The notes under the pieces are model-generated. The model was not told where the DNA came from, did no database searches, and saw only the letters and a program-made list of their open reading frames with translations. A stretch of 35,251 nucleotides of DNA from Myxococcales bacterium (lineage in GTDB: Bacteria > Myxococcota_A > Bradymonadia > Bradymonadales > Bradymonadaceae). Numbering within the stretch: position 1 is the stretch's first letter; every line of letters begins with the position of its first letter. The stretch spans positions 1 to 35,251 of the forward strand of contig SKPJ01000055.1 in assembly GCA_007119595.1 (NCBI GenBank). Direction: 5' to 3'. Shown here piece by piece: positions 7,796 to 35,036 of this stretch. The translations under genes and the position numbers were made by a program.

Positions 7796-8014
7796 ATGGC
7801 CGAGAACGTGGAAGCGCACATTACGGGAACCGTCTGGAAGATCGTGGTCGAAGTGGGCGACGAGGTCGACGAAGACGATGATTTGATCATCCTTGAATCG
7901 ATGAAAATGGAGATGCCCGTCGTCGCTCCCATTGACGGCACGGTCGACGAAATTCATGTCGAAGAAGGTGAAGCCGTCGACGAGGACCAACTTCTGATCA
8001 CGATGAGCGAGTAA
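7796..8014 (+). CDS. Stand-alone biotinyl carrier domain protein (72 aa)
   Basis: 72 residues from the ATG at 7796, chosen because GGAGG lies seven bases upstream; a longer TTG frame from 7769 would include that site. It is one biotin/lipoyl domain: the biotinylated lysine is K37 in ESMKMEMPV, with the hairpin partner VAPIDGTVDEIHVEEGEAV following. There is no long Pro/Ala-rich N-terminus as in the classical AccB, so it resembles the short biotin-attachment proteins known from several acyl-CoA carboxylases. It should be biotinylated by BirA and carry carboxybiotin from the upstream biotin carboxylase to a carboxyltransferase encoded elsewhere. Its last 17 bases overlap the convergent murD end. 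Confidence 0.9.
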   Translation: MAENVEAHITGTVWKIVVEVGDEVDEDDDLIILESMKMEMPVVAPIDGTVDEIHVEEGEAVDEDQLLITMSE

Positions 8015-9380
8015 CGAGGGTCGATACGGCCTGCTGAAATCGGCGGCCTCGCTCCTTGTAGCTGGCGAACATATCGTAACTTGAACAGGCCGGGCTCAGC
8101 ACCACTGTGCTGCCCGGCCTGGCCTGTTTATGCGCCATTCGGACGGCCCCCTCGAGGCTATCGGCCGTCATCACCGTGCCGGCCCGTCCGGTTAGGAGAG
8201 CGACCATTCGCTCCTTGATCTCGCCCAAGACAATGACCGCATCTGCGCGCCGCGCTACCTCATCGGCCCACGCCTCGAGTGCCAACCCCTTGTCTCTGCC
8301 GCCAGCGATGACCACTAACGCTCCATCTATACCGCGCAGCCCGGCCTGTGAGGCATGGGCGTTCGTCGCTTTGGAGTCGTCGATATATCGAACTCCATCC
8401 ACGATGGATACGGGTTGCATTCGATGCGGCAGCGGAGAAAATTGCAGCAATCCACTCCCGATCGCCTCCCACCCCACTCCGATTGAATGCGCAACCGCCG
8501 CGGCGCAGGCGGCGTTGAGCTGATTGTGAGGACCGATCAGTGATGTCTCGGAGAAGTCGTCGAACCAAACCCCTTGCCCTTCATCACTGCGCCATCGTCC
8601 AACGCCACGGGCATCGAAAAATACGGCTGCATCGCCGTCGCGAAGCTCTACGGCTCCGATCCCGAAGTAGGTGACCCTCTCTGGGCATTCTTCGCCCAAC
8701 TCTGCACGCAGCGACGCGTCGCCGGCCGGTAAAACGGTCGTTGCATCCTGGGACTGCAATCGAACCAGGCGAAGTTTCGCCGCCGGATACTCCGCAAAGT
8801 CGTCGAAATAATCGAGGTGATCTTCGGCGATATTGGTGATCGCCGCTGTCTGGACCTGCAGATGATGACAACTCCACAATTGATTTGCGCTGAGTTCGGC
8901 GACGACCACTGCCTCGTCGTCGAGATCGTCGACCACATCGCAGAGAGCAGTACCGATATTTCCCGCCACAACATGCTCCCGTCCGGCGGCAGTGAGCATG
9001 GCTCCCACCAAACTGGTGGTCGTCGTCTTTCCGTCCGTTCCGGTGATCCCAACCCACTGAGAGCGACTGGCATCAAACGCCAACTCCACCTCGGAAATCA
9101 CCGGAATACCCCGAGTGCGAGCCTCGTCAAAAACTTGGAGCCCTGGGCGAAGTCCGGGAGATGTGACGACCACCTCTGCATCGCCAATGACATTACCACC
9201 GCCCACCCATTGCACTCGCTCATCGAGGTGTTCGCCCACTGCCCTTAGCGCTTTTTTGCTGCGCGTATCACTGGCCACAACCTGTTTGTTTCGACGTGCG
9301 AGGAGATTCGCCGCTGCCTTGCCGCTCGTGCCGAGTCCCCAGACGGCAAAGCGCTCGTAATCCAGCCAATTTCCGCTCAT
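7998..9380 (-). CDS. murD: UDP-N-acetylmuramoyl-L-alanine--D-glutamate ligase MurD
   Basis: 460 residues from ATG 9380. The Mur ligase adds D-glutamate to UDP-MurNAc-L-alanine in the cytoplasm. The N-terminal nucleotide fold (VWGLGTSGKAAA), the P-loop GITGTDGKTTT at 111-121, the NIAEDHLDYF motif at 183-192, and the C-terminal GGRDKGLALEAW are all present. The start is decided by GAAGGAG (plus-strand 9390-9396), nine bases before ATG 9380; ATG 9389 would directly abut it. The preceding gene's stop (TGA at 9384-9382) leaves one base before this ATG, so translation is coupled. The 3' end overlaps the biotinyl carrier gene by 17 bases tail to tail. All catalytic motifs look intact, unlike its operon partner. 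Confidence 0.94.
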   Translation of the reverse strand: MSGNWLDYERFAVWGLGTSGKAAANLLARRNKQVVASDTRSKKALRAVGEHLDERVQWVGGGNVIGDAEVVVTSPGLRPGLQVFDEARTRGIPVISEVELAFDASRSQWVGITGTDGKTTTTSLVGAMLTAAGREHVVAGNIGTALCDVVDDLDDEAVVVAELSANQLWSCHHLQVQTAAITNIAEDHLDYFDDFAEYPAAKLRLVRLQSQDATTVLPAGDASLRAELGEECPERVTYFGIGAVELRDGDAAVFFDARGVGRWRSDEGQGVWFDDFSETSLIGPHNQLNAACAAAVAHSIGVGWEAIGSGLLQFSPLPHRMQPVSIVDGVRYIDDSKATNAHASQAGLRGIDGALVVIAGGRDKGLALEAWADEVARRADAVIVLGEIKERMVALLTGRAGTVMTADSLEGAVRMAHKQARPGSTVVLSPACSSYDMFASYKERGRRFQQAVSTLVTRSS

Positions 9381-9381
9381 A

Positions 9382-10806
9382 TCAGCCATCTCCTTCGGCC
9401 AGTGGGCCATCGAGCCGGGGTTGTCCGGTCTCCGCCGGCGCCCGCCCCGCTCGAATCGCCAACCGAGCCTGCAACTCGTCTGCTCGATGCAAAAATTCGT
9501 CGTCTCCGAAGAATAGAATTTTGTCTCCCCGCTGTGCCATGGCACTTAGTTCGTCACTCAAGGAGTGCTCCACCGTGCATACCTGCACCTCTCGGCTGTG
9601 AAAGGTTTGCAGCAGATCATCGATGTCTCCACCTGCCTGCGACGGGTCTGCGACGACCACACAATCGCACACTGAAAATGCATCGGATAACTCGCGACGC
9701 ACCGTCTCGTTTAGCGAAACCCTATACGGTGCATATACGGCGATCATTCGTCCCTCGAAGTCGACGCCAGCCGACTCCAGGGCCTGTTCGATACTGGAGG
9801 GATGGTCCACAAAGTTTTTGATGATCGTCACTCCACCTCCTCGGGCAGCGATATAGCGATTTTGCAGTCCCTCATAGCTCTGCAGTGCTTTGATAATGAC
9901 CGGAGTCGATACTCCGATGCGCCGGGCTACCGCAATGGCTCCCATCGCGTTGATCACATTGTGTGGACCGGGCACCACGAGTCCGAACTCTCCGATCTGG
10001 CGATCGCGATGAAATGCCGCAAAGCAGTTCGCCTTCTCATCCCCATCGACCCCGGTTGCGCGGTATTCGACGGGATGCTCCACCCCATATCCCGTAGGCC
10101 GCATGGCCAACCGGCGTACCAGCTCGCGATTGGCCCTGCAGTCCAGATTGACGAACGCCTCCTTGAGTCGCCGGTTCGCCTCCAGGGCGGCGGTCATCAC
10201 CTCCACCCAATCTCGCGGCTCCCGAGCGTCGCCAGCGCCGGCGCCGCGAAGATCACTGAGTTCCAAAAAGCTACAGACCATGTAGTCGCACTCCAATACA
10301 TGGGTGGTATCGGAGGGCTCATCGAGTTCGATGACAAACCATTCTCCATCACCATCTCGCGCCTCGACACCCAGGTTGTTGAGCCTTGCGCTGGCGACAA
10401 AGCTGGGGGCCATATCGGCACACTCGAGGATCCAGGCGATCATCGACGTCACCGTTCCCCGCCCGTGGGTACCCGCCACTCCGATGGTACGACGTCCTTC
10501 GGCCAACTCCCCCAGAAGCCGCGCCCGACTCACCACGTCAATTCCGTTTCGCCGAGCGGCGATCAATTCAATATTATCATCGCCCATCGCCGCGTGGCGG
10601 ACCACCAAATCGACATCCCTCACACGATCGATGTCGAAGCCGCTCGACAATTCGATCCCCATCCCCGCCAGATCCGCCATTGCCGCACTACTCCAATCGT
10701 CGGAGCCCGACACTTCGATTCCCCGATGATGGAGGATGCGCGCAATACCGGGCATACCGCTTGTGCCAATGCCGGGAATGTGCATCCGCATGCCTTCTCT
10801 CAACAT
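9382..10806 (-). CDS. MurC/Mpl-like Mur ligase homologue with a defective P-loop (probable pseudoenzyme)
   Basis: 474 residues with the three-domain layout of a Mur ligase. The N-terminus MHIPGIGTSGMPGIARIL is like the MurC UDP-sugar domain, and SRARLLGELAEGRRTIGVAGTHG leads into the ATP loop. There the canonical GTHGKTTTT reads GTHGRGTVT (112-120): the phosphate-binding Lys is Arg116 and the Mg-binding Thr is Gly117. The usual TNIEADHLD stretch after the acidic motif (here ELDEPSD) is absent, replaced by SFLELSDLRG. The third domain keeps only echoes of DDYAHHPTEI (NFVDHPSSIEQAL). It is probably unable to make a peptide bond with ATP. ATG 10806 has a GAGG site. It is coupled to murD, so a regulatory or substrate-sensing role in peptidoglycan synthesis is plausible (inference). 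Confidence 0.82.
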   Translation of the reverse strand: MLREGMRMHIPGIGTSGMPGIARILHHRGIEVSGSDDWSSAAMADLAGMGIELSSGFDIDRVRDVDLVVRHAAMGDDNIELIAARRNGIDVVSRARLLGELAEGRRTIGVAGTHGRGTVTSMIAWILECADMAPSFVASARLNNLGVEARDGDGEWFVIELDEPSDTTHVLECDYMVCSFLELSDLRGAGAGDAREPRDWVEVMTAALEANRRLKEAFVNLDCRANRELVRRLAMRPTGYGVEHPVEYRATGVDGDEKANCFAAFHRDRQIGEFGLVVPGPHNVINAMGAIAVARRIGVSTPVIIKALQSYEGLQNRYIAARGGGVTIIKNFVDHPSSIEQALESAGVDFEGRMIAVYAPYRVSLNETVRRELSDAFSVCDCVVVADPSQAGGDIDDLLQTFHSREVQVCTVEHSLSDELSAMAQRGDKILFFGDDEFLHRADELQARLAIRAGRAPAETGQPRLDGPLAEGDG

Positions 10807-11196: not shown

Positions 11197-12630
11197 ATGG
11201 GCTCCGCTACCCTTCGACTCACCACCGTGTTCAGTGTGACACTTTTCTTATTGACGTCCTTGTCTTGCCAGCGCGTGGAGCAATCCCAGATTGAATTGAC
11301 CCAGAGCCAGTGGCAGGACATTCAACAACATATGCCCGACGAACGCCCCTCCCCGGAATACGAATTGGGCGTGGAATACGTCGATGAAATCGAGCTCATC
11401 GGCCTCGATATCGACGGTGAATTCATTCAGGGGGAGTCCGTGGAGTTGACCTGGTATTGGCAGGCCCTTGAGGATGTCGATCAGGATTGGCAGATCTTTG
11501 TCCACTTCGATTCCGAAGAAGAGCCCTTTCGCCAGAACCTGGATCACTATCCCCTGGGGCAGATAACGGATAATACCTTTCGCACCTATCACTGGGAGGA
11601 AGGGCATATTATCGCCGACCGCCAGCGCTTCGTGTTGAGCGAGGATTATCCCGTCGGAGATGCCGTCTTCTACGTCGGACTATTTCGCGGCGAACAACGC
11701 TCACCGGTGAGCAATGATGCCACGGCCACCGAAGACAATCGCGGCATCGGTCCCACCGTAGAAATCAAAGCCGGAGATGGCGAAGAATCGGCGGCCGACA
11801 CCTCAACCGACACGGAAGTTACCCACCAACACACCCTTCCACGGCTCGCCGAGGAGCACCTCGAGGAATTCGAACTGAACGGGCGTCTGGACGACGCCTT
11901 CTGGGGAGACGTGCCATCTCTACGGCTTGAGCCGCTGGCACCCGGATATGCTCAGGACTCCATAGTGCAAGCCGCCTACACCGAAGAGCACCTCCTGATC
12001 AGTGCTCGCCTCATCGACGCCAATCTGGAGCTCCTCGATGAAGATGAGGTCACAACCGGTCCCGAGATGTGGAAAGGAGACGCCCTCGCAGTCTACCTCG
12101 CTCCCACCGGCGCTGACGGAGCCTACGTCGAGATCCTGGTCAGCCCCTTTGGCGAGCTCCACGGAATCGCTTTTGACGCTCCGCCCTCCAGCGAGGCTCC
12201 GCCGTCCAGTGGCGACGACACACGTCAGCAGGACTCCGAGCGCGGACGTTCGTGGAACCCCGACGGGCTCGAAGCCGCAACTCACCGCAGCCCCGCAGAC
12301 GCAGACAATACCTTTTGGAGCGCAGAACTGCGCATCCCCTTCGCCGAACTTCCCGACGCCGCCGGTGCTCCGGACGAGCGCGATATGTGGCATGTCAACG
12401 TCGTTCGCTTTGATCGCCCCGGCCAAGAGCAACACTTTGCCTACGGTTGGCCCGACACGGCGCGCCACGACCATCATCGGGTAGACCAATTCGGACAGTG
12501 GACCTTCGGGTCACTTGTGCAAGATGCACCGACCGTTCAGCAATTTCGGGCCGACGATCAACGACTCCCCGAGCAAATCCGAAAACAGATCGAACAGCGT
12601 CGATCGGGCTCCCCCGAGGGCACGGAATAA
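11197..12630 (+). CDS. Lipoprotein with a C-terminal CBM9-like (DOMON-type) domain
   Basis: 477 residues from ATG 11197, supported by AAGAGG six bases upstream; the earlier ATG at 11098 would bury the signal peptide. The signal is MGSATLRLTTVFSVTLFLLTSLSC with lipobox LSLSC-like LTSLSC, so the mature protein is lipid-anchored. Residues about 58-185 form a beta-rich domain (VELTWYWQALEDVDQDWQIF...VFYVGLFRG). After an acidic Thr/Ser linker, about 222-435 resembles family 9 carbohydrate-binding modules: LNGRLDDAFWGDV, AAYTEEHLLISARL, WSAELRIPFAEL and HVNVVRF in the usual order. A role in binding envelope or external polysaccharide is inferred. The C-terminus is charged and probably disordered. 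It seems to be a single-gene unit. Confidence 0.82.
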   Translation: MGSATLRLTTVFSVTLFLLTSLSCQRVEQSQIELTQSQWQDIQQHMPDERPSPEYELGVEYVDEIELIGLDIDGEFIQGESVELTWYWQALEDVDQDWQIFVHFDSEEEPFRQNLDHYPLGQITDNTFRTYHWEEGHIIADRQRFVLSEDYPVGDAVFYVGLFRGEQRSPVSNDATATEDNRGIGPTVEIKAGDGEESAADTSTDTEVTHQHTLPRLAEEHLEEFELNGRLDDAFWGDVPSLRLEPLAPGYAQDSIVQAAYTEEHLLISARLIDANLELLDEDEVTTGPEMWKGDALAVYLAPTGADGAYVEILVSPFGELHGIAFDAPPSSEAPPSSGDDTRQQDSERGRSWNPDGLEAATHRSPADADNTFWSAELRIPFAELPDAAGAPDERDMWHVNVVRFDRPGQEQHFAYGWPDTARHDHHRVDQFGQWTFGSLVQDAPTVQQFRADDQRLPEQIRKQIEQRRSGSPEGTE

Positions 12631-13064: not shown

Positions 13065-15035
13065 TTATTCCTCCGACTCTTGTTCTCCGTCCTCGTCGCT
13101 ACCTTCGTCGGATTCCCCGTCTTCGTCGGTGACCTCTTCGTCATCCATTGGCTCCCAATCACCGTGCACGCGCACCTGGGTTGCCGAATGCGTTCCGCTC
13201 AACCCTCCGATCCGCAGCGCGTCCTCTCCCTCTCGGGTGACACGCCAGACGTCCAGATTCGATGTCGCTCGACCGGCCGACGCGACCGGTGTCGTCGCCT
13301 TGAAAATCAGGTCATTTCCGCCCGGCGACAAACGCACATTTTCTATGTAGACGTTGCAGTCATCCTCCGCGAGTTGTCCCGCCGAACCGCAGTTGACTGC
13401 GTGATAGTCATCTCCATCGAAATTGCCCCAGATCTCCTCGTATTCTCCGGTTGTCAGATCGCCGGCGACGATCGAGGTGCGTGGAATATTGGCCTCCACC
13501 TGCGTATCGGGATTGGCCGCACTGGACACACAGTCTCGCTTGCCGACGAAATACACCCGCTGATCCGGTCCAAAGGTCAGCGGCGCGTTAGCCTGCGTAA
13601 ACCGAAACGAGCCATCGTCGCGTGTCACCTCACATCCCCCGTCATGACCGGCGTCTGACTGGTCCGGCAATCCCACGACGATCCGCTGCGGCTCACAAAC
13701 TCCCTGGTCGAAATTTTCGGTCGCCGAATCACAGCGGTTGACCGGCCCACACCCGTCGTGATCGGTACAGGGCTGCCCGAGGGTATCTGCATATTCCATG
13801 TCGATGACGTGGACCGTCGGCTCAATGGCCACACAGCGGTCCTCCGATCCACAGGCGTGCCCCGGCTGCGAGCAATCGCTGTCAGTGCTGCACTGTTCGT
13901 GATCGTTGGGTCCGTTCGTTATATAGGCAATAAAGCGCCCGTCATCGGAAAACCCGGCGCGGGTTGTGCCCAGATATAAACTGCCGGCCTCGCCGGGGCG
14001 ATTCGTACCGTCCAAGAACGCGTTGGCCATCGTTCCGTCGTCTAGATTTTCGGCTCGTATATCGAGGGACTCCAATCCGATCGGATCGAATTGAACCGTC
14101 ACATTGCTGGCGGGATGATAATCCCAGGATCGATTCTTTGGCTCCGCATCCAGCGCCTCCAGGGTTGCCACTTCCTTTTCAGTGCCGTCGTAGGTCATAT
14201 AAAACCCGGTGCGAAATCCTCCCGAGGGACGCTCGTAGGCCACACCGTCACCGCGGATCCAGGGGCGCGCCACGGACTCAGCGATACGGGATGCCGATCC
14301 TTGAACCGCCGGAGGGTCACCTTCGATGGGAGCGGAATAGATATCGTAGCCATCGGCGACACTCTCGACGGCGATAAAGTGCGTTTCGTCCTCGCTGATG
14401 GCGCATCGATGCATCTCGTGACAATCGATATCGCCGGTATCGACCATAACTCGCTCCTCCCCCACGCCGGGCACATAATGAAGCTCGGTCGTCGCGTCGT
14501 CGCCGACGACCCAATCGGCCACATAACTGACTCGATAGTCCTCAGATTGTGCCTCTTCCGGCGGATCGCCATAGGGGCCCAGGGGATCGGGGACGCATTC
14601 GCCGTCATCGCAGATAAACCCGTCCGCACAATCATCGCTCTCCTCACATTGTGTGGGGCCTTCGACCACTACGCAGACCTCATTGTTTTCACAATACATA
14701 TCGACCGGGCAGTCCGCTTCCTTGTCGCACGAGACTTCGCCGTCGGGTTCAATGCATATCTCTTCTTCTGTGTCGCAGAGCATGAGGGAATCGCAGTCGT
14801 GTCGTTGGGAACACGGCTCTCCGTCGACGCAGATCTCGTCCTCACAGACCATCCCCGCCTCGCAATCTGCCCGCTCCGTGCACGGTGGGGGCCCCGGGTC
14901 CACTTCTTCTTCCTCTTCGGAGCATCCCGCCAGTACCAGCCCCACCATCGCGAGGGCGAGGATCCCGAGTTGGCCGATCGCCATTCGCCCTATCTTTGCT
15001 TTGCGTGTTCTCACGTCCGTACTCCCTGAGTTCAT
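13065..15035 (-). CDS. Large cysteine-repeat lipoprotein with a propeller-like body
   Basis: 656 residues from ATG 15035; ATG 14984 is possible but leaves the signal peptide without basic residues. The n-region RTRKAKIGR, a hydrophobic stretch and lipobox VLAGC mark a lipoprotein, followed by acidic EEEEE. Four tandem units of about 30 residues follow with the pattern C-x4-DC-x5-C-x4-5-C (CTERADCEAGMVCEDEIC, CSQRHDCDSLMLC, CDKEADCPVDMYC, CEESDDCADGFIC), typical of Myxococcota surface proteins and probably disulfide-bonded. Two more units interrupt the middle of the protein (CSTDSDCSQPGHAC and CTDHDGCGPVNRC). The rest has repeated strand motifs (SEDETHFIAVES, FSDDGRFIAYIT, SPGGNDLIFKAT) like TolB-type propeller blades. 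The tail is highly acidic. Ligand unknown. Confidence 0.85.
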   Translation of the reverse strand: MNSGSTDVRTRKAKIGRMAIGQLGILALAMVGLVLAGCSEEEEEVDPGPPPCTERADCEAGMVCEDEICVDGEPCSQRHDCDSLMLCDTEEEICIEPDGEVSCDKEADCPVDMYCENNEVCVVVEGPTQCEESDDCADGFICDDGECVPDPLGPYGDPPEEAQSEDYRVSYVADWVVGDDATTELHYVPGVGEERVMVDTGDIDCHEMHRCAISEDETHFIAVESVADGYDIYSAPIEGDPPAVQGSASRIAESVARPWIRGDGVAYERPSGGFRTGFYMTYDGTEKEVATLEALDAEPKNRSWDYHPASNVTVQFDPIGLESLDIRAENLDDGTMANAFLDGTNRPGEAGSLYLGTTRAGFSDDGRFIAYITNGPNDHEQCSTDSDCSQPGHACGSEDRCVAIEPTVHVIDMEYADTLGQPCTDHDGCGPVNRCDSATENFDQGVCEPQRIVVGLPDQSDAGHDGGCEVTRDDGSFRFTQANAPLTFGPDQRVYFVGKRDCVSSAANPDTQVEANIPRTSIVAGDLTTGEYEEIWGNFDGDDYHAVNCGSAGQLAEDDCNVYIENVRLSPGGNDLIFKATTPVASAGRATSNLDVWRVTREGEDALRIGGLSGTHSATQVRVHGDWEPMDDEEVTDEDGESDEGSDEDGEQESEE

Positions 15036-15431
15036 CTTTATTGTCGCCCATCTCCGTCCCAAACGACTTGGCCACTCCATGACGCGGTGATTCATCATCC
15101 ACACCGGTTGTTGCGCGGAGGTGACACAACCGGCGTACTATAAGTTGATGATGAGTGCGTATCAAGTACGCCTGTGCGCGTCAGACAAAGACAAACACCC
15201 TATGCAACCCATCGATCATTTCTCCCTTCAGAGTTACCCTATCGATGGGTGCGATGCGATCTATGATCGCCAATTTTTCACCGGTGACCCGGAAGAACCG
15301 AAGGAGGTGGATCACCCAGCAAAGGGAGGCTGGTTGAACCAATAAGCCAACAGGGCTTAGAATACCTCCAGACACCGATTTGGGCGCTCCTATCATCGGG
15401 CTGCCCCGGCACTTTACCCCCTTCTCAAGGC
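15036..15431. other. 396-base intergenic region with multiple hairpins
   Basis: Divergent promoter region between the Cys-repeat lipoprotein (-) and the zinc-ribbon membrane protein (+). Short open frames at 15121-15345 (+) and 15181-15396 (-) have no ribosome binding site worth the name and no family resemblance, so I do not call genes. The right half, 15204-15369, is unusually rich in inverted repeats (next entry). Confidence 0.5.
15204..15369. ncRNA. Candidate structured RNA or leader element (class unknown)
   Basis: Successive inverted repeats are visible. ACCCATCGAT (15207-15216) pairs perfectly with ATCGATGGGT (15241-15250), extended by GC/GC across one bulge. GCGATC-TAT-GATCGC (15256-15270) is a perfect 6-bp hairpin. 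TCACCGGTGA (15278-15287) is a palindrome, whose GGTGACC half can alternatively pair with GGATCACC (15309-15316) through one bulge. CCAGC/GCTGG pair at 15316-15333. TAAGCC/GGCTTA close a 5-base loop at 15343-15359. GGAGGT (15303-15308) and ACCTCC (15364-15369) could close a multi-branched junction around the last two. No known riboswitch core was recognised. It ends 62 bases before the 15432 start. The strand is not certain, and some helices are mutually exclusive. Confidence 0.4.
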
Positions 15432-17501
15432 ATGGTCATCACGTCGCTCAACCACGCGAATAGATTCCCGACACGCCGGTTCACGCAAGGGCGACTTGGC
15501 GCTCTATTGCTGGCGTTGCTCTCCGGGATTGCAGTCTCTGCAATGATGAGCCCGCCGGTCCATGCCGGGGAGCCGAGCATTGAGAATATGCTGGAGTCCA
15601 TGGGACGTTCAGATGCCCCGGACGCCACCGCCGCTCTTCCGGAACCGACGACCAGTGACGTCAACCTCTCCGTGCAGTGGCGGTTGTGGAATCGCGTCCT
15701 TTCCAACGGGGAACCGGGCCTATCGGAGTTGGAGACACTGCACGCCGACGCTGTCAGTCTGGGTCGTCCAAGCCTTCCACATCACCAACTCGCGGTCTTG
15801 CACACCGCACAACGAGGTACCCAGCACGGACTTACCGACCAGGAAATCCTGCGTCTTCAACGAGCCGCCTACGATCTGGCGCCACATCTTCCCTATGCCC
15901 AATTCGAAGTCACGCGTTGGGAAATCGAGCACTCTCCCTCGACGGCGTACCGCGCAATCCCGCCCTATCTGCTGGGCCTACAGCTCAGCTACCAATGGCT
16001 CGATACCCGTATCGGTTGGGCTCTCAAGTGGGCATTGATCTTCTTTCTCGCCATCGGATTGATCTTCGCCGGATTCCTGCTCGCTCAACTGCTGCGCTAT
16101 TTTGGAATTGCTGCCTACGATGGCACCCGAGTCCTTCCCAGCGGGTTTTCCAGCACTCAGACCGTGATTTTATTGGTCGCCCTCGTCCTGGTGCCCGGTT
16201 TGATCATCCAATCGCCATTGCTGTCGATGCTGCTTTTATTGGCCATCGTCACCCCCTTCCAACAGCTCAATGAGCGAATGGTAGCCTGCGTATTTTTCCT
16301 CTTCATCGCCGCTCTTCCCTGGGCCGACGAGCAACTTGGTGAATTGTTGAATTATCCGGGAAGCGATGCTCAACGGATCCTCCATGCCCATTATCACGGC
16401 TGTGACTCCGAGTGCCGCCCATGGCTGGAGCAACTCGCCGCCGATGAAGAAGATTACGGCGTGGCCCAATACACGGAGCGCGTCGATCGATTCCGTTCCG
16501 GCAAACAGGCCGATATGGAGGCCCTTCATGCATGGTTTCAGGACCACGACCCCGAACAGTACCAGGACCTGGCCTCCCATTGGCTCAATCTGGAGGGTGC
16601 GATTCTCATCGCCATCGGCAAGTCCGATGAAGCCCTCGACATACTCGAAGAATCGGCGACCGCCGATCCCACAGCCGCCGCCCCCTGGTTCAACCAGATG
16701 CGGGCCTTACAAGTCCAGAATCAACGCGATGAAAGCCAGGATGCATTGAAACTCGCATTCGCCCGCGATTTTGAGACCGTAACCCGCAAACTCTCATTCT
16801 CCCGCCAGGATCCGCACAGCTTTTTAATGATGACCCACCTTGACGGCGACCGCATCTGGCAGGCCTACACGCCTACCACCGAGGAAGCCCCGAGTCTGAT
16901 CACTCCCTTTTGGACCGTCATTGCCGGCGAGAAGGTCCGCCTCTCATGGGCTCTGTGGTTGGGCCTCGGTGGTATCCTGCTGTTGATCGTCACGCTTCCG
17001 CCCTATTTAAGTCGCCGCGTCAGTTCTCCGTGCCCCAAATGTGGCCTCGCTCGCGACCCCGAGGACGCCGAGCAAACGGGTCACCACCACTATTGTGCGC
17101 CCTGCTATAAGACCTTCGTATCCGGCGCCACAATGGACTACCACGCCCGGGTTCATACCGAGACCATGTTGGGTCGGCGCGACCGAGTGCAGCAAATACT
17201 TCGCCGTATTTTCTCCCTTCTCACACCGGGGGTAGGTCATATCCTCGGCGGCCACGCCATTCGCGGCGTACTCGCGTTCAGCGCACTGATCACCGGTGCA
17301 CTGATCCTGTTATACCCCATGGGTCCCTTCGGGGCCTGGCGAGGCCCCTTCGAGCTCTTCTTCGAACACTGGGGTGGTCAGTCGGTTATGGCCTGGATCC
17401 TGATCTCCATCGGCGCCTCCGTGGGACTCAATGGAGTGCTGCGCGGCGTGGAATCCACACGGGGCCGGACATCCAAACCCAACGACAAGGATGCGCCATG
17501 A
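15432..17501 (+). CDS. Multi-pass membrane protein with TPR-like and zinc-ribbon regions
   Basis: 689 residues. A signal sequence (about 1-45, ending PVHA/GE) is followed by a helical extracytoplasmic region. Membrane segments lie around 200-222, 243-263 and 264-275, and possibly 283-297. A helical TPR-like stretch spans about 340-450 (LNLEGAILIAIGKSDEALDILEESATADPTAAAPW, in two pieces). Another membrane helix is at 505-522. A zinc ribbon has C534-x2-C537 and C555-x2-C558 with HHH between. Two final hydrophobic segments come next (VLAFSALITGALILLYPM and VMAWILISIGASVGL). I do not recognise the family. The stop overlaps the next start (ATGA). Location just upstream of phoH is conserved-looking but unproven. 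The ribosome binding site AAGG is only one base from the ATG, so the start is uncertain. Confidence 0.8.
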   Translation: MVITSLNHANRFPTRRFTQGRLGALLLALLSGIAVSAMMSPPVHAGEPSIENMLESMGRSDAPDATAALPEPTTSDVNLSVQWRLWNRVLSNGEPGLSELETLHADAVSLGRPSLPHHQLAVLHTAQRGTQHGLTDQEILRLQRAAYDLAPHLPYAQFEVTRWEIEHSPSTAYRAIPPYLLGLQLSYQWLDTRIGWALKWALIFFLAIGLIFAGFLLAQLLRYFGIAAYDGTRVLPSGFSSTQTVILLVALVLVPGLIIQSPLLSMLLLLAIVTPFQQLNERMVACVFFLFIAALPWADEQLGELLNYPGSDAQRILHAHYHGCDSECRPWLEQLAADEEDYGVAQYTERVDRFRSGKQADMEALHAWFQDHDPEQYQDLASHWLNLEGAILIAIGKSDEALDILEESATADPTAAAPWFNQMRALQVQNQRDESQDALKLAFARDFETVTRKLSFSRQDPHSFLMMTHLDGDRIWQAYTPTTEEAPSLITPFWTVIAGEKVRLSWALWLGLGGILLLIVTLPPYLSRRVSSPCPKCGLARDPEDAEQTGHHHYCAPCYKTFVSGATMDYHARVHTETMLGRRDRVQQILRRIFSLLTPGVGHILGGHAIRGVLAFSALITGALILLYPMGPFGAWRGPFELFFEHWGGQSVMAWILISIGASVGLNGVLRGVESTRGRTSKPNDKDAP

Positions 17502-19107: not shown

Positions 19108-22100
19108 ATGACAGGTTATCGCGCCCTCGCCGTAGTCGTCGTCGCCGTCGGCTTCGCCGGCTGTAGCTGGACGCAGGCCCCTCAGGCATCCGATGATTTC
19201 TCTCTTGTCTGGACGATTCAGGAACCGACACGCACTGTCTCGAAGGGAGAGTTTTATATAACCGACGGAGGCTATTGGGCCTATAAGCCACACGACCGAG
19301 ACACGGTCCGCGGCGAGATCTCGACTGGCGAGCTCACCGTTCTCAAATCCGAGCACAATCGACACTATTTCGCCGTTGTTGAAACCGCTCGCTGGGGCTA
19401 TCGGCTTCAACGACTCGACGACCGACCGCTCCAAAATGTGCTCACAGGTGATCTCCTTGTACTCAATGCAAAAACGCTGGAAGAGCACGATGACCTCTGC
19501 ATCATCTCTGATGTGGATGACCTCGACGAACGATGTGGGCTGTCCCACCGCCATCGGCGTTGGGACCTCTTCGAGATAGACGATTCCGAAACGCAGAGCG
19601 ATGCGCCGCCGTCGATCCGGATTCGCGGCGACTACGCAGATTTCGACCACCGCGAGCATTTCCCGGTTCTGCGAAATGGTATCGCCGGTGGTGACATCCT
19701 GAGTACCTGGTGGGAAGGCGATGCCGACGCCCATCATGGCCCGCCGATGCTCGCCATTCGGACCAGCCCCCAGACGGAGAGCACCTTGCGGGCGACCGTG
19801 GCCTACGACGATTCCTGTGGGTCCCCCCCGTCGCCGTCACCACTCGTTGAAGTCGCCGCCTATGATTTTGACGCCCGGGATATCTCGCTGCCCACCTCAC
19901 CACATCCAATCACCATCGAAGATGCCGCACTGCGCCTGGGGGTCGACACTATTTTGACCTGCCATGCTGACACTGCTTCCCTGCTGGTGCCCATGCTCTC
20001 GCGCCCCCTGCTATACGACGCAGACGACGTCTACTTCGCTCCCCCGGCGATCGGTGTGAGCCCCAGAATGCTCGACGGTGCCTCCCCCGCCTCGATAGCC
20101 GCCTGGACGCGGGCCGGCGCCCTCACGGCCGTCGGCGACTTTTCCGGCGCCGCATTTTGGGTCGAACAGGCCGTCTCCGGGGAACAGGAGCACAAAACAC
20201 TCGATGAATTGGCATTGACAACGATGCCCCTTTTGACCGCCGCCGGTCGACCGGAACTGGCTATGCATATCGGCTCCCGGGTCACCCGAGGCTCCTGGAA
20301 TCCGGAGAATATCCCGGACTACCTCGATGGACTCATCGTTTTGCTGGCCCACTTCGGCGACCACGAAGATCTGCAGAGCCGCGTCGAGCGACGCCAACGA
20401 CTGGCCGGACAGCGTTTCGATTCTCATCGGGTCGGCTGGTACAAGTGGGCCGATCTACGCCAGCAATTGGCGGAGCAACACAGCTCCTATGCCGTCGGCC
20501 ACGAACAAATCATCGCCTCCCTCGAAGATCGAGGCCTCGAGGGGTGGACGTTGGCGGTCTGGGCCACACTGGTAAACAACGACGTGGAGCTTCCCATCGT
20601 CGATGATCCTGACGAGCTAGACCCGCGTTTCTCGGACTTTGAAGTCCAGGCATTTTGGCGTGCTTCACGCGCTCTTCCATCGATCGACAACTGCCCTGGT
20701 GGTGCCACCGATCCCGAATGCCAGCCCACCAGCTACGGCTGGTCGAAAACGCAGCGTTCGACCGGCGACGACATCGTCGAGCGACTCCGCACACTGGCGC
20801 CCATCGCACTCCGCGGGGGCTTTGCCGAGCCCTCCTTTCCCGAAGGGGCAGCGCGCGTAAACGACGGTGCTCAAAAGACGGCCTACTGGCTCGCCTCCGC
20901 CGCGCTGGTACCGCCCGGGGAGTTTCCCACTCACGTCGATCGACTCATGGATTCGCTATTGGCGCAATTCGAGCACGATGCACACTCCCTCTGTGATGAT
21001 CTCCCGCAGTGGCAGGCCCGGTTTGAAAACGCCGCAGCCCGTACCCGATCTCCCTCACTTGATCGCTCGAGAACGCGATGGATTACGACAATGGAATGGT
21101 GGACCGACCACGGATTACAAGGGCTCTGCGATGGGCCGGAAGTATTTTTGACGGCCCTTGAAGATCACGGCTCCACATCGAATCCTTGGACCCGCCAAAC
21201 CCTTCCCTTTCTGGAGTATCAGCTCCTGGAGCACTCCGCCGTGCTCTCCGACACCTCCCTTTTTGCTCGTGCCACAGACCTTGCTCGCTCTCTCGGCGCC
21301 GACGACACCTGCACCCTGTGGAGCCTCGGCGTCAGCATCGGCGCCATTCGAGCCGGCTATTTTGATGCCGCCGAGTCTCATCTGGTAAGCGCGTCGAATT
21401 GTCTGCAATCTGATAGTCCCTACGTAGAGGCTCGAAATCTGGTCGCTGCCTATCTCGATTTTGAGCGTGGCGGCGGCCGCACCATCATTCGCGACGGCGG
21501 CGTCGAGCAAGCCATCGCCACAGCCACTCGTCGCCGCATCACCGATACCGATGCCTGCGTTGGATTACGACCCATGGGATTCCAGCTCGAACAGCAGCTC
21601 CCCCCATCGGTGATGCGCATCGCAGCGCGAATTCAGCTCGAACCGGCGCCCCATGATTCCTTTGCCCTGAGTACGGCAAGCCGGCTTGTCGCTGAGGCCC
21701 ACGCAGCGTATTTATCGGGCCTGCGAGACCTCCATCGTGGTCAGTTGCATACATCGGCCAGAGCGCTGCAGCAAAGCCGAGCCAACCTGCGACGAATCGG
21801 AAATCTTCCCGGACTCGCCCGCATCGGATTTCTGGACCAAGTCGTATTCGATGGCAATCTCGATGCCGTCGCCGAAAATGGGGATTTCGATCTCCCGAAA
21901 GACCACGACACAATTGAGATGATTCGCAGTGGCGAGACCTATCGAGTCCTCGCTGAAATCCTCCCATCTCACGCAGTCGATGACGATATCCCCCTCAACG
22001 CGCTAATTGCGGCCCTACTCATCGATGGTCAGGACTCCCACATCGCCGAGCGATTCGATGGAAAACTCGTCGACCTACCAGCCCTATGCGATGCGGAGGA

Positions 22101-22212
22101 AATCCTCTTCGCCCAGCAAGAGCCTCCACCATCCATCGAAATCAATGGCGAAGAAGCAGCGCTTGAAGATGAGACCGACGAGCCGGTAACCGAAGAAGCT
22201 ATCGTTGAATAG
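19108..22212 (+). CDS. Large lipoprotein, 1034 aa, unrecognised
   Basis: The signal peptide MTGYRALAVVVVAVGFAGC gives a lipobox at residue C19, and TAGGAG lies nine bases before the ATG. The first 250 or so residues are strand-rich and include several Cys; the remainder alternates Ala/Leu-rich helices (SIAAWTRAGALTAVGDFSG, GVSIGAIRAGYFDAAESHL, AHAAYLSGLRDLHRGQLHT) that look like degenerate TPR/Sel1-type solenoid units. The C-terminal 40 residues are acidic. I do not recognise the family. The kinase gene begins 12 bases after its stop, so an envelope-located partner or sensor for that kinase is a reasonable inference. No frameshift was seen. Confidence 0.82.
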   Translation: MTGYRALAVVVVAVGFAGCSWTQAPQASDDFSLVWTIQEPTRTVSKGEFYITDGGYWAYKPHDRDTVRGEISTGELTVLKSEHNRHYFAVVETARWGYRLQRLDDRPLQNVLTGDLLVLNAKTLEEHDDLCIISDVDDLDERCGLSHRHRRWDLFEIDDSETQSDAPPSIRIRGDYADFDHREHFPVLRNGIAGGDILSTWWEGDADAHHGPPMLAIRTSPQTESTLRATVAYDDSCGSPPSPSPLVEVAAYDFDARDISLPTSPHPITIEDAALRLGVDTILTCHADTASLLVPMLSRPLLYDADDVYFAPPAIGVSPRMLDGASPASIAAWTRAGALTAVGDFSGAAFWVEQAVSGEQEHKTLDELALTTMPLLTAAGRPELAMHIGSRVTRGSWNPENIPDYLDGLIVLLAHFGDHEDLQSRVERRQRLAGQRFDSHRVGWYKWADLRQQLAEQHSSYAVGHEQIIASLEDRGLEGWTLAVWATLVNNDVELPIVDDPDELDPRFSDFEVQAFWRASRALPSIDNCPGGATDPECQPTSYGWSKTQRSTGDDIVERLRTLAPIALRGGFAEPSFPEGAARVNDGAQKTAYWLASAALVPPGEFPTHVDRLMDSLLAQFEHDAHSLCDDLPQWQARFENAAARTRSPSLDRSRTRWITTMEWWTDHGLQGLCDGPEVFLTALEDHGSTSNPWTRQTLPFLEYQLLEHSAVLSDTSLFARATDLARSLGADDTCTLWSLGVSIGAIRAGYFDAAESHLVSASNCLQSDSPYVEARNLVAAYLDFERGGGRTIIRDGGVEQAIATATRRRITDTDACVGLRPMGFQLEQQLPPSVMRIAARIQLEPAPHDSFALSTASRLVAEAHAAYLSGLRDLHRGQLHTSARALQQSRANLRRIGNLPGLARIGFLDQVVFDGNLDAVAENGDFDLPKDHDTIEMIRSGETYRVLAEILPSHAVDDDIPLNALIAALLIDGQDSHIAERFDGKLVDLPALCDAEEILFAQQEPPPSIEINGEEAALEDETDEPVTEEAIVE

Positions 22213-32433: not shown

Positions 32434-32979
32434 TTATTGTTGAAGCGACGAGGCATCGAGAGCCTCCACCCGCTGATTCCATGTTTTATCGGTCCATATC
32501 CGCACCTTGCGACGTTCGCCGTCGCGGACCAGCTCCACGATCAGACCGTGGCCGGGCCATGCCCCAGCGATGCGATCGAGCCATTCCACACAGGTAACAC
32601 CGCGACCACCATCGAGATAATCCCAATATCCGATCGATTCCAACTCCGCCCACCCCTTTAGACGATATAAATCGATATGAAAAATGGGAGGCGTCGTCTC
32701 ATAAACCTGAACCAGCGAATAGGTGGGACTGGTGGCCTGCCAACATCCGTCTTCATCCACCGCACTTACCACCCCCTGCATCAACGTCGTCTTGCCAGCC
32801 CCCAGGTCTCCCACGAGCCCCATAAACGCACCGGCACCGAGTTGCTTCCCAATCCACGCCCCCAGCCGGCGTGTCGCTTCTTCCCCATCCAACTCCACAA
32901 TCACCACCGGCTCAGGGTCAAGTCCTGGATATTCCTCGGGCCGAACTCGCCAATTGTTCTCTGCCGACAGACCGCTCAT
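32434..32979 (-). CDS. tsaE: tRNA threonylcarbamoyladenosine biosynthesis ATPase TsaE
   Basis: 181 residues from ATG 32979, which overlaps the stop of the preceding gene (ATGA); the longer frame from 33198 runs over that gene in another frame. TsaE is the P-loop ATPase that works with TsaB and TsaD in making the t6A37 modification of ANN-decoding tRNAs. Walker A is GDLGAGKTT at 57-65; SPTYSLVQVYE, HIDLYRL and VEWLDRI are the other family motifs. The length is slightly longer than the usual 150-160 because of an N-terminal extension of about 25 residues. Translation must be coupled to the pseudokinase, an unusual link for this housekeeping gene. Confidence 0.94.
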   Translation of the reverse strand: MSGLSAENNWRVRPEEYPGLDPEPVVIVELDGEEATRRLGAWIGKQLGAGAFMGLVGDLGAGKTTLMQGVVSAVDEDGCWQATSPTYSLVQVYETTPPIFHIDLYRLKGWAELESIGYWDYLDGGRGVTCVEWLDRIAGAWPGHGLIVELVRDGERRKVRIWTDKTWNQRVEALDASSLQQ

Positions 32980-35036
32980 TGTACGTAAAATGGATATTCG
33001 ACGCCCCGCTCTTCGATCGCTCCGTGCTCTGGAAAACGCATTGCCCGAAAGCGCTCGATCAGGCATTGCCCGACGGGACGGTTCTGATATTGCTGCTCCT
33101 TTAGGCTGACCCCGCCGGTCGTACCGGTGGGCCGGATGAAGAACTTGATCGTCACCCCGCGAAACGAGCGATTGGTGTTGACTTCCTTCATGATACAATC
33201 GCGCAAGGCCGCAAAGTCGGAGGTAATGACCTGATTGATCTCCTGATCCGTCAGATGATGGTCCGTACCTCCGTCAGCGCTCATATCTATCACCGTGGGT
33301 TCGTCCTCTTCGGCGGGACGTTGTGCCGGCTGTTGCGTTCCTCCACGCGCGCCCGACGGGCGTGAAGGGGCGCTGGAGGCTGCCTGTGCCAGTTGTCGGG
33401 CTACTTCTTCCTCACTGGCCTCCGGATTGAAGATACTTTCCATGACATCCGGATCGACCTCCATGGTCTGAAATTCAGTCGGCGGCGGAGAAAAATGATA
33501 ATCCAAGGACGCAAAGGCCTGATCCATGGGAATCGGCTCTGGATCGGGCTGCTGAAGCCAGAACCAACCCATGGCTACTAATACGACCAGACCGGCGATA
33601 ATTCCTACCACCAGTGCTGCCTTTCCACCCTTTTTGGCCTTTCGTTTCAATTCTGCGCGCCGTTCCGCCTCCAGGCGAAGCCTCTCCTCCCGTTGGGGAA
33701 TATACTCCTGTACGGGCTCGCGAAAGACCTCGATTTCTCCGAGCGGTTGCCGCTCCTGGGTGGTTCTGTCCAATACCTTGGAGTGCTCATCGATTTCATC
33801 TGCGTACAACTGCTCGAGGATCTCCTCGACAGTAAACGGCCCGTAATCCAGTCCGTCCTTTTGTACCAGATAGCGATCATCGTTGGAGTCACTGCCCGCC
33901 GATGTGCCTATATCGTCGGGATCGAAGAGATCGAATAAATCGTCGTCCTCGCTGTCGTTGCTCTCCTCCACGGCTGGTTTAATCGGAAGCGCTCCCGACG
34001 GTGGCGGCCCTTGCAGCTTCGCACCGGCGTCGCGGGCGATCTCCTCGAACTCCCGGCGAAATACTTCCACCGACTCCGGTCTCTGCGCGGGATCTCGCGT
34101 CAGACATCCCGATACCAAGCTGAATAAAGATGGCGGATACTGTGCCAGCGCATCGACCGCCATGTCATGGGCCGCCTTGCGATCACTGGGCAGTCCGGTG
34201 GGACTCAACAATTCGGCAGCGATCATTCCAAGACTGTAGAGATCGGCCCGAGGAGTCAGTGTCGACGGGTCCTCGGCCGCTTCCGGTGCCACGTAGATAC
34301 TGTCCACAAACGGGCCTTCACCCCGCCCATACAAATAGGTACCCACGACCCGGCCGAAGCCCAGATTTCCCACTTTTACGTGGCCTACGCCGGTGACGTA
34401 AATATTATAGGGCGTCAATACCCCGTGACTGATCTTGCGCTGGTGAACCCCCTCCAGAGCATCGCAGGAATGGGCCAACACCGTAAAAGCATCGCGCAAA
34501 CTCAGAGTGCGCCCTTCCTCTCGTCGTTTGGCCACCAGTTGCGAAAGAGTGGCACCCTCCACGTATTCCATGGCGATGAAAATATCGCCGTCCTCGGTGC
34601 GTCCCATCCCCACCGCCCCGATCAAATTTGGATGATCGATGGAGCTGGCGACACCGATCTCAGAGCGCAGCTTGGCAAACCCCTCATCGCCGGGATAGGG
34701 CATCTCCAACACCTTAACCACCACCGGACTCTGGGTCGCTCGATCGTTGCACAGATAACTGATCGCCCCACCGGAACTGCCGAGAAACCGCTCTACGAAA
34801 AATCGCTTTCCGACACAATCACCGGTTTTCAGTGCCGTCTTTTCCGGTATGTGGCGACTTCCACGAACCCCAGGTGCCTGCCGTTGTACTGCTGGTTTTG
34901 GAGGCGGTCCGGGAGGGCCGGAACGTCCCGGCGGCTTCGGCGGACTCTTTGGCGGCCCCTTCGGGGAAGCGCTTTTCTTAGCACCCCTATTCGGCGGCTC
35001 GATGGTGATCTGCGGTTTGTCTGAGGAGTCAGTCAT
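32976..35036 (-). CDS. Pseudokinase-GYF-TM-AgmX/PglI-tail protein
   Basis: 686 residues. A Pro-rich disordered start (about 20-55) leads to a Hanks-type kinase fold (about 75-335) in which K108 and the APE at 250-252 remain. The catalytic loop HRDxKxxN reads HGVLTPYN (204-211), lacking the catalytic Asp, and DFG reads NLG (224-226). The glycine loop is SSGGA. It is thus a pseudokinase. An acidic linker (about 355-385) precedes a GYF_2-like domain (YLVQKDGLDYGPFTVEEIL...), then a basic helix, one membrane helix (about 473-494), a Pro/Gln-rich part, and a C-terminal domain (about 600-686) with paired Cys, LRDC...GQCLIERFRAMRFPE, like the AgmX/PglI C-terminal domain. It shares its operon with tsaE. 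Confidence 0.92.
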   Translation of the reverse strand: MTDSSDKPQITIEPPNRGAKKSASPKGPPKSPPKPPGRSGPPGPPPKPAVQRQAPGVRGSRHIPEKTALKTGDCVGKRFFVERFLGSSGGAISYLCNDRATQSPVVVKVLEMPYPGDEGFAKLRSEIGVASSIDHPNLIGAVGMGRTEDGDIFIAMEYVEGATLSQLVAKRREEGRTLSLRDAFTVLAHSCDALEGVHQRKISHGVLTPYNIYVTGVGHVKVGNLGFGRVVGTYLYGRGEGPFVDSIYVAPEAAEDPSTLTPRADLYSLGMIAAELLSPTGLPSDRKAAHDMAVDALAQYPPSLFSLVSGCLTRDPAQRPESVEVFRREFEEIARDAGAKLQGPPPSGALPIKPAVEESNDSEDDDLFDLFDPDDIGTSAGSDSNDDRYLVQKDGLDYGPFTVEEILEQLYADEIDEHSKVLDRTTQERQPLGEIEVFREPVQEYIPQREERLRLEAERRAELKRKAKKGGKAALVVGIIAGLVVLVAMGWFWLQQPDPEPIPMDQAFASLDYHFSPPPTEFQTMEVDPDVMESIFNPEASEEEVARQLAQAASSAPSRPSGARGGTQQPAQRPAEEDEPTVIDMSADGGTDHHLTDQEINQVITSDFAALRDCIMKEVNTNRSFRGVTIKFFIRPTGTTGGVSLKEQQYQNRPVGQCLIERFRAMRFPEHGAIEERGVEYPFYVQ

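Follow-up and report, generated by a model that had tools for sequence, protein, structure and literature searches.

A MurC that is probably dead and displaced by a second copy is partly conserved beside murD in a genus of the Bradymonadales

The window, a 35,251-nucleotide stretch (contig SKPJ01000055.1) from the fragmented MAG of a Myxococcales bacterium (614 contigs, 88% complete), carries directly upstream of murD a MurC-type gene that appears to have lost its catalytic residues and to have been retained as a protein. MurC catalyzes the first step at which an amino acid is added to the cell wall precursor, and MurD the next. We give a probability of about 0.6 to the reading that it encodes the lineage's resident MurC, displaced, dead, and kept as a nonenzymatic protein coupled to MurD. 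The parts of this reading differ in strength. Displacement and loss of catalysis are very probable from alignments and gene content, a noncatalytic function at the protein level would be likely, and MurD or another Mur enzyme as the partner is a tentative suggestion that may well prove wrong.

The degenerate MurC (P0001) is a full-length protein of 474 amino acids, encoded on the minus strand from position 10806 to 9382. In NCBIfam profile searches it scored 223 bits against MurC (TIGR01082), under the equivalog cut-off of 335, and 144 bits against Mpl (TIGR01081), under the cut-off of 389. By sequence, the solved structures nearest to it are those of MurC proteins, and with Pfam the N and M domains scored above the cut-off and the C domain under it. 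The AlphaFold model (pLDDT 87.6) keeps the three-domain Mur ligase fold, with Haemophilus influenzae MurC (1p31) as its top PDB match (TM 0.84), which confirms the proposal of a sequence-only reading of this DNA that the protein is full-length and has the MurC fold. In the MurC tree it branches, with 100/100 support, inside the window family's clade of KGT-type MurCs, so called here after the P-loop of this type, and its place directly upstream of murD is the same as that of the KGT-type gene elsewhere in the family. No relatives were found in viral contigs. On the other side lies a divergent lipoprotein-like gene (11197..12630, plus strand) for which a Pfam search gave no match and whose homologues lie upstream of the degenerate gene in several relatives. 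Three further open reading frames of the window, 13065-15104 (minus), 15432-17501 (plus), and 19108-22212 (plus), encode proteins of 679, 689, and 1,034 amino acids that matched nothing in Pfam; for the first two, some relatives have homologues close to the murC-murD locus.

To locate the active site, we used the residues given in structural work on MurC and Mpl (PMC3060825) and mapped them via Escherichia coli MurC. Residues 112 to 118 (10453..10473, minus strand) read GTHGRGT rather than GTHGKT, so that Arg116 (10459-10461) replaces the P-loop Lys, as the sequence-only reading had stated. The Mg2-binding His (His199 in E. coli) is replaced by Asp185 (10252..10254, minus strand). The TNIEADH stretch is also gone, as had been noted, with CSFLELSDL in its place, and the ribose Asp351 is replaced by Asn331, Tyr352 by Phe332, and Tyr410 by Ser389. 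Glu160 (E. coli Glu174, Mg1), Glu163, Asn286, and Arg317 are kept. Comparison within the genus (g1, the window's species plus G001 to G004, whose habitat we take to be soda-lake sediment) shows Arg at the position of Lys130 in four species, one of which (G002) is represented here by its N-terminal fragment, and Ser in G004. Tyr352 and Tyr410 are lost across the genus and His355 in four of its five species; Glu177 is lost in four of the five, the window's copy keeping the equivalent Glu163. The amino-acid-binding loop of the resident MurC is lost in the dead copies. Ligand-binding columns were not lost preferentially compared with other invariant columns (P = 0.19), which counts against the reading favored here, and invariant columns are broadly relaxed in these copies.

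Gly117 had been read as a second mark of decay, in place of the Mg-binding Thr. The residue is as described, but its interpretation was rejected because all 20 intact MurCs sampled across the class (Bradymonadales and relatives) read GTHGKGT. Since Gly117 is common to all 20, it is ancestral, and on the alignment the real losses are the P-loop Lys and the Mg2-binding His. The GKGT type of loop is also found in FolC, including the FolC of the window's own genome (GTNGKGT).

KGT-type MurCs mostly score above the MurC cut-off (342 to 387 bits where measured over the whole length). The usual state in the class is one KGT-type MurC plus one Mpl-like protein, and within the window's family it is seen in three genomes that each consist of a single contig. 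This gene content suggests that the KGT-type protein is most likely the working MurC of the class. In the window's family and several other lineages its gene immediately precedes murD; in others, murD was not seen adjoining it. In Lujinxingia vulgaris (L109:3001-4413) and its relatives, whose copies are intact, CNFLELDHL replaces TNIEADHMD, KDYxSHPT replaces DDYxHHPT, and Tyr/Leu stand where canonical MurC has the L-Ala-binding His/Arg. The amino acid specificity of KGT-type MurC may thus differ from that of the canonical enzyme. Some members of the class depart from the usual state. A possibly intermediate case, G012 (L085/L115), has an intact P-loop Lys and an altered UDP-binding glycine loop (GIDQVG), and no second MurC was found in its genome (86% complete). 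The MAG isolate 2_bin.46 has two KGT-type copies (L132 and L133), each followed by murD. The genomes of family f5 (G028, G034, G037, G040, G042, G046, and G048) each have two MurC/Mpl-type proteins, all under the MurC cut-off.

Degenerate murD-adjacent copies occur in the five species of g1, in G015, and in G018, and in the family and class surveys they were confined to lineages with an additional GTHGKTT MurC. This second MurC is present in all genomes with a degenerate copy except the window's own, scoring 474 to 517 bits against TIGR01082 in G001 to G004, 510 in G015, and 366 in G018. The second copies of g1 and G015, present in five of these six species, form one clade in the MurC tree and match canonical MurCs from elsewhere in the Myxococcota at about 50% identity; within the window's family this type is confined to them. 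G009 is the only other genome of the family with a second GTHGKTT MurC, and its resident copy, which is of the KGT type, looks intact (the two genes lie at C148:32316-33725 and C151:24655-25980). The second copy of G018 differs from the g1/G015 type. The MurD tree groups G018 with G006, whose MurC is intact, and so indicates that decay happened at least twice; the MurC tree places G018 with g1, probably as a long-branch effect. Only relations within the family were used from the MurD tree, with the outgroup rows G021o and G036o set aside as probably not MurD because the MurC loci from which they came had no separate murD match where checked.

The sequence-only reading had named intact P-loops in orthologues across the clade as grounds for its refutation, and in part this is what the comparison shows. 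Elsewhere in the family the P-loop Lys of the orthologue is intact and this protein is usually the only MurC, which makes the dead state a recent, genus-level one. The earlier claim of a dead ligase holds within g1, where a MurC-type protein that has very probably lost catalysis is conserved across the genus. A clade-wide sensor family was ruled out on the same grounds.

Identity within g1 is about 43% for the degenerate MurC and about 63% for MurD, whereas intact relatives show the opposite ranking (about 70% for MurC and 45% for MurD). The reading frame is open in all five species, and synonymous sites are saturated. With fourfold-degenerate sites matching at or close to the level expected by chance, a protein left to drift neutrally would have been erased. 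Conservation is concentrated in two places. Residues 208 to 247 (RLKEAFVNLDC...RPTGY; 10066..10185, minus strand) have a mean pairwise identity of 0.715, a value as high as which was reached in 0 of 2,000 column permutations. The C-terminal tail, QPRLDGPLAEGDG (9385..9423, minus strand), is disordered in the model and conserved in the dead copies, with an identity of 0.56 compared with 0.31 for the N domain, 0.35 for the C domain, and only 0.19 for the stretch after residue 386. Its motif, QPxxDGPLxEGD, can be recognized in three intact relatives (G006, G009, and G019), and its codons differ at synonymous positions. Where two species share an amino acid, they share its codon at a rate of 0.41 in the block and 0.40 in the tail, compared with 0.44 in murD. 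This codon reuse, which does not exceed that of murD, indicates that the constraint acts on the protein. Judged from these comparisons, the degenerate MurC is retained by protein-level purifying selection that continued after its catalytic residues were lost. Residues 208 to 247 align with the H7-beta11 loop and the next strand of E. coli MurC, and the loop contains a PFYG motif that contributes to the interface of the E. coli MurC dimer (PMC3060825). The E. coli pocket that receives the loop lies in the N domain, which the degenerate copies of two species lack, and the block may be conserved merely as part of the fold core.

The downstream murD (7998..9380, minus strand) is intact, with GTDGKTT and 369 bits against TIGR01087 (cut-off 212), and the stop codon of the degenerate gene (9384-9382) ends one base before the murD ATG (9380-9378); both observations agree with what had been noted from the sequence. 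The genes overlap in G003 and G004. The likely murD Shine-Dalgarno sequence, GAAGGAGA (9389..9396, minus strand), lies within the tail codons, which, together with the abutting or overlapping start, makes it probable that translation of murD is coupled to that of the degenerate gene. This arrangement is also what would be expected if the gene were decaying and kept only as a translational leader that supplies the murD Shine-Dalgarno sequence, with a protein that does nothing, and the broad relaxation of invariant columns and two losses of the N-terminal domain fit that explanation as well. However, a leader that functions without its translation product would not need 380 to 474 codons, amino acid identity in the block and tail is 0.56 to 0.72 while synonymous codons are free to vary, and dN/dS is 0.15 to 0.35 where computable, at saturated synonymous sites. 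A mere leader is therefore unlikely.

A second alternative is that the protein is still an enzyme, in which the Arg-containing P-loop and the other changes alter ligation without abolishing it, and that it supplies the MurC activity of the window's genome. No second MurC was found in that assembly, equivalents of Glu174, Asn296, and Arg327 are retained in all dead copies, along with Thr132 where the region is present, and the window's copy has Glu163. Such retention might allow nucleotide binding without catalysis. Continued catalysis is nonetheless very unlikely, given the loss of the Lys, the Mg2-binding His, and the amino-acid-binding loop. The replacements of His199 vary between sister species (D, E, V, G, and L), as expected for unconstrained sites. 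Moreover, a canonical MurC is present in all four sister species, and the window's genome is 88% complete. The missing second MurC nevertheless counts against displacement, as does contig C204, the expected place of the gene, which has the flanking genes of the second murC of G001 and G002 without a murC. A kinase-like homologue flanks the second murC in G003 (L080), and the window itself encodes a protein kinase domain protein (Pkinase) at 32976-35036 (minus strand).

The sequence-only reading had also proposed that the protein senses a UDP-MurNAc intermediate, that is, that it would act as a sensor or regulator binding UDP-MurNAc or its derivatives without catalysis. The retained fold and some of the nucleotide-site residues would be compatible with this. 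The evidence from the UDP-binding domain itself (residues 1 to 105; 10492..10806, minus strand) goes the other way: constraint on it is weak, most dead copies have a degraded glycine loop, and G001 and G002 lack the domain entirely, where a lipoprotein-like homologue lies directly upstream of the shortened gene. The new starts in these two species differ ('MVKEHNPKIFDQLAKSGTRVVAVIGTHGRGT' and 'MTTPDAIDATDITIAVTGTHGRGT'), which suggests two separate deletions. These losses argue against a UDP-MurNAc sensor, which was discarded as the main reading and is now highly improbable. An assembly or sequencing artefact, for which the 614-contig MAG might give grounds, is scarcely credible, because four other g1 assemblies show these losses with the gene in an identical context, and a single read error is excluded by the CGG codon of Arg116, from which even the nearer Lys codon differs at two positions, and by the Arg of three sister species.

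We favor a displaced MurC kept for a noncatalytic role, which could have arisen as follows. In the ancestor of g1 and G015, a canonical GTHGKTT MurC, presumably acquired by horizontal transfer, would have become fixed elsewhere in the genome. The resident MurC would then have lost the P-loop Lys, the Mg2-binding His, the amino-acid-binding loop, and usually the acidic Mg-support residue, the second copy probably having come first and decay after. The old open reading frame may have stayed because murD translation depends on it and also because its binding surface and tail continue to serve some purpose. Protein-level selection on the block and tail fits a noncatalytic binding role. The partner would most likely be MurD or the replacement MurC, although this is uncertain. 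Scaffolding of MurD had also been proposed in the sequence-only reading, and a scaffold or partner role of this kind may apply, with support that is indirect. Physical associations among Mur proteins have precedents: MurG is reported to associate with MurE-MurF in Bordetella and with MurD, MurE, and MurF in Thermotoga (PMC6420597). A more specific possibility, that the dead MurC is an obligate noncatalytic subunit of MurD or a Mur assembly, bound through the former dimerization surface and the C-terminal motif and provided by coupled translation, is conceivable but rather doubtful. No report of dead MurC copies or Mur ligase pseudoenzymes was found in the literature, coverage of which was incomplete.

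Compared with known systems, the degenerate protein is closest to MurC (UDP-N-acetylmuramate--L-alanine ligase, TIGR01082, EC 6.3.2.8), its top match in both sequence and structure. It shares the fold and domain order and descends from a MurC that was intact and belonged to this family, and it differs in its score under the cut-off and in the three catalytic losses. The KGT-type MurC of L. vulgaris is its orthologue, with the same place beside murD and the same tail motif. L. vulgaris and the other intact KGT-type members keep equivalents of the Lys, Glu177, and His199, and they are about 70% identical to one another versus 40 to 47% to the dead copies. Mpl, the murein peptide ligase (TIGR01081), is a related Mur ligase that also uses UDP-MurNAc; it is a separate protein in the window's genome (C220), and the degenerate MurC falls outside the Mpl clade. 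In E. coli, a murC(Ts) mutant can be complemented by overexpression of Mpl (PMC3060825), so the Mpl-like protein could in principle stand in for MurC. Dead paralogues that regulate an active enzyme, such as the prozyme of trypanosomes with AdoMetDC (PMC5201418), resemble the case described here in being catalytically dead homologues kept by selection. For the prozyme, complex formation and activation are proven, whereas the partner of the degenerate MurC is putative and its neighbor is the next enzyme of the pathway.

Instead of GKTT, the intact MurCs sampled across the class have a GKGT loop of the FolC type and form a subfamily. Nature seems to have run an experiment here on the replacement of an essential enzyme, with lineages in which the resident MurC is the sole copy and intact, in which both copies are intact (G009), and in which the old copy is dead yet partly conserved. 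Should MurD prove to be bound by the retained surface and tail, these would offer a genetic handle on the proposed Mur ligase complex. If the subunit reading is true, then on at least two independent occasions an essential enzyme would have been replaced and its predecessor left in a structural role.
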